Both the position numbers and the translations under genes were made by a program. This document shows positions 15,651 to 27,259 of a DNA stretch of 34,966 nt, piece by piece. Every line of letters starts with the position of its first letter. Within the stretch, counting starts at the first letter, position 1. The DNA lies in contig JAQWCN010000007.1 in the NCBI GenBank assembly GCA_028705955.1, positions 1-34,966 on the forward strand. Reading direction: 5' to 3'. The notes below the pieces were generated by a model that was given only the letters and a program-made list of their open reading frames with translations, did not search any database and had not been told where the DNA came from. The stretch is from Eubacteriaceae bacterium (GTDB lineage Bacteria; Bacillota; Clostridia; Eubacteriales; Eubacteriaceae).

Positions 15651-15757
15651 CTGATAAATGATTGTCGCCCGATTCGATGATCGTGACATACTCCTTAAGA
15701 ATTACCTGAATTAGTAACAGCAACTTCTTAATTCATCGCAGACAGCCAACTTTTTCT

Positions 15758-23794: not shown

Positions 23795-24829
<1,035 letters not shown>

Positions 24830-24859
24830 TTATTAAAATAGTTACTAAATATATTATAT

Positions 24860-24905
24860 AAAAAAACCGTCTCTTTGTATACACATATTGTATACAAAGA
24901 GACGG
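24860..24905 (-). terminator. T-box regulated terminator
   Basis: A perfect 16-pair stem (complement of 24867-24882 and 24890-24905) with a 7-base loop is followed by seven T. Its 5' arm contains the CCGTCTCTTT segment that alternatively pairs with the T-box region to form the antiterminator, the standard switching arrangement. Confidence 0.95.
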
Positions 24906-25173
24906 ATAATATATACCAATCCGCGGTACCACTCTTTTTGATGAAAAACCTTTCATCCGCTTCAGGTCGGAGCTGTGCTCTTAACCCTATTCCGTTAACG
25001 CCGGAAATTCTAATATGAATTTCGTCTTTCCCTACTTTGTCTCCATTTCGAGTCAGCTGCTCCCAAGTGATTATTCCACGTTTGCCCACTGCCAGCTTTT
25101 CACCATCCGCCGGTTCTCTGTAGAAAGCATACAACGTCTTTCTCTTGCTCATCGCATTTACTTTAATTGATTA
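24860..25173 (-). promoter_or_regulatory. T-box riboswitch leader of ilvC, probable Ile specifier
   Basis: T-box leaders sense uncharged tRNA and allow read-through when an amino acid is short. The T-box core AGTGGTACCGCGG is at the complement of 24921-24933. Its flank AAAGAG...CGGAT can pair with AUCCG..CUCUUU in the 5' arm of the terminator, giving the antiterminator. In Stem I the specifier side reads GGAATAATCACTTGGGAG; aligned with known T-boxes the triplet is ATC (complement of 25069-25071), isoleucine. An open frame through here (24811-25152) is not a protein. Confidence 0.9.
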
Positions 25174-25279: not shown

Positions 25280-27163
25280 TTACTTCTTAAAAAATTCTTG
25301 AATGATTTCCCGGCATTCCGGTTCACAAATTCCCGAATAAAATTCTGTTTGATTGGAAAGCATGGGATGTTTGCCCAATTCACACGTCGTCTCGACACTG
25401 CCATACCGGGTTTCCGACACGCCATACACAATTTTTTTGATCCGGCTTTGAATAATTGCTCCCATACACATTGGACAGGGTTCCGCTGTCACATACAATT
25501 CACAATCATCCAAACGCCACCGTTGAAGCACATTTGCCGCTTCACGAATAACGAGCATTTCTGCATGAGCTGTCGGATCCTGCATTCCTTCTTTACGATT
25601 ATGATTTCTGGCTATTATTTTTCCATCTTTAACCAGCACGGCACCAACAGGGACTTCCCCTTCATCAAGAGCTCTTCTGGCTTCTGTTATTGCCTTCGCC
25701 ATATAATCGCTCATTTTCAAAGGCACATTTTTTTTTGTTTTTTCTCCCCGGTCACCGGTCTTTCTATCTTTTTCTGGGTTTAATCTTTGTCCCGGGACCA
25801 TGGCTTGATCAAAGCCAAGCTTTGGAATCTCTGGTGCTTGATCTTTTTTCATCAAAATCAGGCCGCTTTTAGCTGGAATACTAATGGCACCAAAGAGGGT
25901 TTGATCTTCTCCTGAATAAAGATCAGTGAATTCTCCTGTAAACTGGTCATCCCTTATCTGCACATCCCCAGCTTCACAATTAAACAAAACCCAAACCCTT
26001 TGATCCCCACAGGTTCGCAAAAATCCCATTTGGCAGGATGCCACAAACAGCTGTTCATAACTTCCCTCTCTCAGTGCTTTTACTGAACGCCGGATCGCTC
26101 CCATTCTTGCAATTTTCTGGTAAAGCTCCGTTTTAGAATCAAAATGCATGCTTTCATAACAGGGACGTAATGGCGCATCTGTATCCTTTCCCTTTTCACC
26201 TTTAGCCCCTTGTTCGCTCCCGTAATAAACACTCGGAATTCCCGGCATCGTATAGAGCATTAAATAGAGGGGTTCTAAATCCCTCTCATCTTTTAAGGTT
26301 GAAGCTACCCGATTTACATCATGATTATCAACGAAATTATACGTCAGAAATTGGCTGTACAATCCCCCGGCTCCAAACAACCGGTTTAAAGAGTAGGCAA
26401 TTTCGAAATAGTTTTTATCATTCAGACTGGAGTACATCCCTTTATAATCTTCATAATTAGTCACTGAATCCAAACCACCATTTTGAATCAGCTGACGATA
26501 ATCGCCACTGACGCTTTCCCCCACCATATAAAAATCCGGTTTGCGGTTCCGGGCTGCGTCACCAAGCTCTTTGATAAAACTGAGATCCATCACATTGGCG
26601 GCATCCATCCGAACCCCATCAATATCAAAAGTTTCTATCCAGAAAAGCATGGTCTCTTTGAGGTACTGACGAACTTCCGGATTATGAAGATTCAGTTTCA
26701 CTAAATTGTCACATCCGGCCCAATTATGATATTGAAACCCATCATTGTAGCCATTGTTTTCCCAAAAATTAATTCCATCATACCAATCTTTATAGCGTGA
26801 CTGATCCCGGTATGCTTGTATATCCTGAAACGCAAAGAATTCCCGGCCTGTATGATTAAAAACACAATCTAAAACAACGTTAAATCCCAGTTGATGACAT
26901 TGGTCCACCAATTCTTTGAGATCGTCATTGGTTCCCAGTCGTGGATCCACCGTCCGGTAATCTGTCGTGTCGTAACCATGGGATACCGAACTAAAAACCG
27001 GCCCCAAAAGCAGTGTATTGATCTGCATTTCCTTTAGATAAGACAAAATAAAAGCAATTTTTTTTAGCCGGTGTTTCACCCCGTCACATTGGACTTGAGT
27101 GGCTTCGGCTCCACAATAACCCATTGTAAAAATATGATAAATCGTCATTTCTGAGTGTTTCAT
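25280..27163 (-). CDS. GH13 alpha-amylase-like protein fused to tRNA adenosine deaminase TadA
   Basis: This is one uninterrupted 627-residue frame with two unrelated domains. Residues 1-440 are a GH13 alpha-amylase fold: region I DCVFNH (99-104), nucleophile Asp187 in DGVRMDAAN, acid/base Glu216 in VGES, Asp282 in FVDNHD, then a beta-sandwich ending SGLILMKK. A polar linker (about 441-483) leads to a complete TadA: MSDYMAKAITEARRALDEG, zinc/proton site HAE (533-535) and PCPMC (562-566), IVYGVSETRYG. TadA makes inosine at the tRNA wobble position. No signal peptide, so it is cytoplasmic. ATG with AAGGAGG seven bases upstream; no ribosome binding site is visible before the TadA part. Confidence 0.9.
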   Translation of the reverse strand: MKHSEMTIYHIFTMGYCGAEATQVQCDGVKHRLKKIAFILSYLKEMQINTLLLGPVFSSVSHGYDTTDYRTVDPRLGTNDDLKELVDQCHQLGFNVVLDCVFNHTGREFFAFQDIQAYRDQSRYKDWYDGINFWENNGYNDGFQYHNWAGCDNLVKLNLHNPEVRQYLKETMLFWIETFDIDGVRMDAANVMDLSFIKELGDAARNRKPDFYMVGESVSGDYRQLIQNGGLDSVTNYEDYKGMYSSLNDKNYFEIAYSLNRLFGAGGLYSQFLTYNFVDNHDVNRVASTLKDERDLEPLYLMLYTMPGIPSVYYGSEQGAKGEKGKDTDAPLRPCYESMHFDSKTELYQKIARMGAIRRSVKALREGSYEQLFVASCQMGFLRTCGDQRVWVLFNCEAGDVQIRDDQFTGEFTDLYSGEDQTLFGAISIPAKSGLILMKKDQAPEIPKLGFDQAMVPGQRLNPEKDRKTGDRGEKTKKNVPLKMSDYMAKAITEARRALDEGEVPVGAVLVKDGKIIARNHNRKEGMQDPTAHAEMLVIREAANVLQRWRLDDCELYVTAEPCPMCMGAIIQSRIKKIVYGVSETRYGSVETTCELGKHPMLSNQTEFYSGICEPECREIIQEFFKK

Positions 27164-27189: not shown

Positions 27190-27218
27190 ATTATAAACGA
27201 TTTTATTCCATCCGTAAA
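27190..27218 (-). promoter_or_regulatory. Promoter of the GH13-TadA gene
   Basis: TTTACG (complement of 27213-27218), 17 bases, then consensus TATAAT (complement of 27190-27195). The leader is short, about 20 bases. It lies just after the lon terminator. Confidence 0.6.
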
Positions 27219-27259
27219 ATAAAAAGAGGCCTGGCATCAAAAGATACCATTGCCTCTTT
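27217..27259 (-). terminator. Terminator after lon
   Basis: On the minus strand AAAGAGGC pairs with GCCTCTTT, with an inner GGTATC/GATGCC stem and a TTTTTATTTT tract. It begins 17 bases after the lon stop. Confidence 0.88.

Follow-up and report, generated by a model that had tools for sequence, protein, structure and literature searches.

Both protein families that meet at the locus described here are known. The neopullulanases, cyclomaltodextrinases and maltogenic amylases of GH13 (1j0h, 1sma, 1ea9) are built around a catalytic barrel followed by a C-domain, and the N-terminal domain of neopullulanase-type enzymes mediates dimerisation. Standalone relatives of the GH13 considered here occur in Clostridia, and such a GH13 was detected in 90 of 391 sampled genomes of the class (about 23%), three family members counted. 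The other partner, the tRNA-editing deaminase TadA (PDB 7cph, E. coli 1z3a, 2b3j), is elsewhere a standalone protein of ~150–170 aa. Its product is of consequence for arginine decoding, as an ACG tRNA requires inosine to read CGU, CGC and CGA. An E. coli TadA mutant with almost no editing of tRNA-Arg2 was reported to grow in minimal medium and to be impaired in rich medium (PMC13170351). The pairing of both domains in one protein is apparently undescribed: no relevant paper on TadA fusions or on this protein in Eubacterium was found in the open-access literature, the coverage of which is incomplete. The fused open reading frame (ORF) is presumably listed in automatically annotated E. limosum genomes.

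In the present study a stretch of 34,966 nucleotides of contig JAQWCN010000007.1 from a Eubacteriaceae bacterium, hereafter the window, was analyzed, in which a first-pass annotation had proposed an in-frame fusion of a GH13 amylase-like enzyme with TadA.

Materials and Methods

The fusion was searched for in 40 genomes of the family together with a scan of genome contigs. TadA-grade genes were sought with NF008113 in 15 genomes and tRNA-Arg(ACG) by a pattern search, and the structure was predicted from a 7-sequence alignment. A species tree was computed from ribosomal proteins with FastTree, some deep nodes of which are weakly supported; a tree of the TadA domain was set aside for the ordering of events, being too short and weakly supported.

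Results

Layout of the fusion gene and its expression signals

The features of the locus are as follows.

25280..27163, (-) strand: GH13-TadA fusion ORF, 627 aa, ATG to TAA, backed by full-length relatives
25838..27163, (-) strand: GH13 part, residues 1–442, catalytic barrel with D187/E216/D282 and beta C-domain
25715..25837, (-) strand: polar linker, residues 443–483 (41 aa), predicted with low confidence or as disordered, fast-evolving
25283..25714, (-) strand: TadA part, residues 484–627, with H533, E535, C563 and C566
27170..27177, (-) strand: Shine-Dalgarno (SD) sequence AAGGAGGT before the GH13 ATG, read from the sequence
27190..27218, (-) strand: sigma-A-type promoter-like site TTTACG-17-TATAAT just upstream of the fusion, 10/12 matches
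27232..27249, (-) strand: terminator-like hairpin between lon and the fusion gene; the total of such sites in the region is not above that of shuffles
24895..25161, (-) strand: T-box leader of the downstream ilvC/leu operon, RF00230, 94.9 bits
25180–25207: promoter-like site of the ilvC/leu operon's own, downstream of the TadA stop of the fusion

The proposed fusion was borne out by an open frame of 627 codons, by Pfam domains of both families, with PF00128 at residues 39–328 (1.5e-52, whole protein) and PF14437/PF00383 at residues 485–627 (7e-39), and by 12 further genomes that carry it. The catalytic residues D187, E216 and D282 as well as HAE 533–535 and PCPMC 562–566 lie at the positions that had been given for them, and all are invariant across an alignment of 13 proteins, except at a single site in UBA7485, at which the frame is interrupted by an ambiguous base. 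The two halves are indeed joined by a polar linker, although its length is 41 aa (residues ~443–483) rather than the ~43 residues first estimated; in the window genome it contains an A9 run.

A strong SD and a promoter-like site stand ahead of the GH13 start only. It had been claimed that a ribosome binding site is present at this start alone, and this agrees with our reading of the window: AAGGAGGT is strong, the TadA methionine is preceded by no usable SD, and the stretch from the GH13 end to the first TadA helix offers no usable pair of SD and start codon. The codons GTG480 and ATG484 are present in the window fusion, both without a well-placed SD. Relatives of g4, g5 and g7 have an equivalent SD ahead of GH13, and the 5' end of the gene, with an SD before the start codon, is kept in most genera. 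As the earlier reading had it, expression of TadA would be tied to the GH13 promoter and start. Transcripts of lon and of the fusion gene would be separated by the terminator-like hairpin after lon.

Some further observations concern the surroundings. An apparent ORF of 113 aa (24811–25152) lies mostly inside the T-box leader and is probably no gene, and an S10-Clostridia ribosomal protein leader (RF03136) was located at 15662–15744 on the (-) strand, upstream of the S10 operon. A set of ABC transporter genes, by eye a substrate-binding protein, a permease and an ATPase, lies between lon and the fusion in g9 and the E. limosum group (L159, L158, L039) and immediately precedes the fusion.

The GH13 half

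The PF00128 barrel possesses the Asp nucleophile (D187), the Glu acid/base (E216) and the Asp stabiliser (D282) of the family, all of them invariant. Barrel and C-domain align with those of neopullulanase-type enzymes (1j0h, 1.8e-55), with catalytic triad and NHD motif conserved, but identity is about 25%, a TadA domain is borne at the C-terminus and an N-terminal CBM34-type domain is lacking: the match begins at chain residue 178 of 1j0h and is preceded by only ~35 residues in the fusion protein, too few for the classical N-terminal domain of the group. The NCBIfam cut-offs for cyclomaltodextrinase and maltodextrin glucosidase were not reached by the fusion protein. Foldseek likewise returned alpha-amylase II (TVA II) and neopullulanase as best matches for the predicted structure, which displays barrel elements with a beta C-domain, a linker with pLDDT of about 30 at residues 450–480 and an alpha/beta deaminase; with a mean pLDDT of 69 and a pTM of 0.57 it is of moderate confidence only. 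This half would be an intracellular alpha-glucan hydrolase of the neopullulanase/cyclomaltodextrinase type.

Closer in sequence are the standalone clostridial GH13 proteins (L127, L130–L156; mostly 40–47% identity over the GH13 part), which differ in that they are not linked to tadA and in that some carry another conserved C-terminal tail. This tail, EEMTVEELQEAILEKM..GPVTEQMKKDVYENVYHNSLVTWIKSF, was seen in many of the relatives L130–L146 (e.g. L131:1489–3147) and gave no Pfam match in L131. From its presence in many clostridial relatives it seems that this GH13 family gains C-terminal additions repeatedly.

The TadA half

The deaminase part corresponds to a full-length TadA domain (5.8e-39 to 2.8e-35; the top PDB matches are TadA) with the zinc and catalytic motifs HAE and PCxxC, and differs from known members in forming the C-terminal part of a 627-aa protein. 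Against the curated NF008113 cut-off of 150 bits the fusion scored 144.0 bits in the whole-protein scan and 150.1 bits in the genome search, a threshold which only five of 12 matching control genomes reach; its TadA part stands far above the remaining deaminase matches, which are ORFs of RibD length (371–424 aa) and weak matches in ORFs of ~163–195 aa. One TadA-grade gene per genome was found in the 15 genomes. A second tadA, the presence of which had been raised as a question, was not detected in the window genome, which is 88% complete, and the single-contig relatives close the remaining gap for their own species.

This sole copy occurs alongside tRNA-Arg(ACG), which was found in the window genome (G000 contig C238) and in the fused relatives tested. 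The pattern gave no match in G021 (g3, 92% complete, split tadA), which may be due to a sequence variant or a gap. In 27 genes of the window 220 CGT, CGC and CGA codons were counted, and since the second CGN-type tRNA of the relatives has the anticodon CCG, reading of CGU, CGC and CGA depends on the ACG tRNA. The fusion would then supply the only TadA of the cell and would deaminate A34 of tRNA-Arg(ACG) to inosine. The first-pass annotation had called TadA essential for wobble inosine in most bacteria; strict essentiality is not to be assumed, because the E. coli mutant nearly devoid of editing was viable in minimal medium (PMC13170351).

Conservation and history of the pair

The same architecture was recovered at full length and with 50–68% identity in 12 other genomes from four further genera, namely Pseudoramibacter (P. 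porci and relatives), the E. limosum/callanderi group, E. barkeri/E. aggregans and UBA7485, so that five genera carry it in all. G039 is likewise a fused genome, and three of the fused genomes are single-contig assemblies (G024, G025, G034). With 12 further fused genomes, neither chance nor a single assembly error accounts for the architecture. Pairwise dN/dS amounted to 0.03–0.10 for GH13, 0–0.08 for TadA and 0.21–0.71 for the linker where computable, values that are approximate because several pairs are near synonymous saturation, while the contrast of domains and linker remains large. Both domains are under strong purifying selection and the linker is not; the latter varies between about 18 and 110 aa among relatives without conserved sequence. 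Some apparent exceptions were dismissed. A frameshift in UBA7485 (L039/L014), considered as a natural fission, coincides with an ambiguous base; a match in Methylobacterium (L103, 63–580) resolves into a GH13 fragment in one frame and, separate from it, a different deaminase in another; and the long TadA frames in G368, G100 and G265, in which no second domain was seen, are apparently just long open frames.

Within the family this GH13 is present in 16 genomes, in all of which tadA is fused to it or lies directly downstream (16/16). Outside the family, coordinates were compared in 80 genomes with such a GH13 (a TadA match was obtained in 75), and tadA was located elsewhere except in G366, where both genes are ~1.5 kb apart with two opposite-strand genes between them, an incidental neighbourhood.

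All stages of association are met at the same locus. Upstream of ilvC and/or cimA-leu, tadA stands alone in the Acetobacterium-like g2, in g8, in S27M and in P. alactolyticus. In g3 (G020, G021, G022) GH13 and tadA are separate ORFs in the same order, with junctions of an 11-nt overlap, a 4-nt ATGA overlap and a 1-nt gap and an SD-like sequence ahead of the tadA start; for these overlapping or abutting neighbours translational coupling is predicted from sequence. The N-terminal extension of the g3 TadA is homologous to the G039 linker (E 3e-07; 0 of 1000 shuffles reach the score).

In the GH13 tree all family members form one clade (support 1.0), and this tree agrees with the ribosomal-protein tree in placing g3 with g9 and g1 with g7, some nodes being weakly supported. 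P. alactolyticus, S27M and g8, which possess TadA without GH13, fall inside the fused clade, and therefore GH13 was most simply lost three times. For g3, one fusion followed by a split and two independent fusions from adjacent genes are equally parsimonious. The pair would have arisen once, when tadA at the ilvC/leu locus acquired a clostridial GH13 gene as its immediate upstream neighbour; both genes would next have become translationally coupled, and finally the boundary would have been lost to yield one reading frame.

Discussion

As judged from sequence comparison, the GH13-TadA fusion is real and inherited. That a missed stop or frameshift had joined two separate genes might have been suspected from the fragmentation of the window genome (245 contigs, 88% complete) and from the homopolymer in its linker, yet 12 other genomes, single-contig assemblies among them, share this open frame and differ in their linkers, and the comparative data already refute such an artefact, the likelihood of which is negligible. 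The suggestion of a trapped read-through, as an accident of the window genome, is not supported either, because the architecture has been kept in five genera with purifying selection on both domains. The conserved active sites and the low dN/dS of both halves favour instead the other possibility named at the outset, a truly bifunctional protein. A stable bifunctional chimera that arose from translationally coupled neighbours, with the linker as a tether and the halves probably acting independently, is in our view the probable explanation; each domain would most likely do its own job, and physiologically TadA would be produced 1:1 with GH13, under the promoter and start site of the latter. Chance neighbourhood followed by coupling and loss of the boundary is the most economical account. 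Within this account we infer that both halves are catalytically active and free of cross-talk, and likewise what GH13 acts on and in which order the steps occurred. Against it stands that linker proteolysis or some internal initiation is possible in the window species. If these were the rule, the fused frame would be mostly a coding convenience that frees a working TadA, and to this the fast evolution of the linker, its prediction at very low confidence as for a disordered stretch, and its A9 run, which could slip, would all lend themselves. At residue 447 the G039 fusion (L015), moreover, retains an in-frame ATG with SD, which corresponds in position to the point where the unfused g3 tadA begins, so that fused and free TadA are both possible there. 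However, a well-placed SD before the TadA start is absent in the window and in most relatives, and in E. barkeri and E. aggregans no ATG, GTG or TTG occurs at the TadA boundary, the first start codon lying inside helix 1. The only source of TadA in these two species is the fusion ORF, whole or cleaved, so that internal initiation cannot be a general route, and we regard release of TadA as the main purpose of the arrangement as distinctly unlikely.

Persistence of the fusion at family level, with GH13 never found away from tadA in the family, is more than a purely neutral fusion needs, and the strict co-occurrence (16/16) speaks most strongly for some advantage in expressing the two together. 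It could also point to functional or regulatory coupling, by which GH13 senses or processes alpha-glucan and controls, localises or stabilises TadA, so that sugar state would reach inosine-dependent arginine decoding; GH13 and tadA are adjacent even where unfused (g3), and editing by TadA matters mainly in nutrient-rich growth in E. coli (PMC13170351), a nutrient connection which says nothing about the fusion protein. Tight interdependence sits poorly with the recurrent lack of GH13 where TadA persists and with a linker that changes freely: three lineages among the fused ones carry TadA without GH13, which counts against the sensing protein once considered for this gene, and neither length nor sequence of the linker is conserved. 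The intact GH13 triad is more in keeping with an enzyme than with a mere sensor, and in the 80 other clostridial genomes GH13 is away from tadA wherever both were found, the one pair within 1.5 kb, in G366, being separated by two opposite-strand genes. Coupling is an unlikely reading, and an integrated device in which intracellular binding or hydrolysis of alpha-glucan controls activity, dosage or location of TadA is more doubtful still.

The bifunctional chimera would mean that a core translation enzyme has no gene of its own but forms the tail of a sugar enzyme, and has done so stably across a family-level clade, which includes the tractable acetogens E. limosum and E. callanderi and also gut bacteria. 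As the family holds TadA alone, abutting or overlapping neighbours, the fusion and apparent secondary losses of GH13, it provides a natural test of how fusions without obvious functional logic arise and persist. It is likewise a ready system for probing a possible link of tRNA editing to carbon status; if an integrated device were true, inosine-dependent arginine decoding would follow carbohydrate status in Eubacterium-type bacteria.
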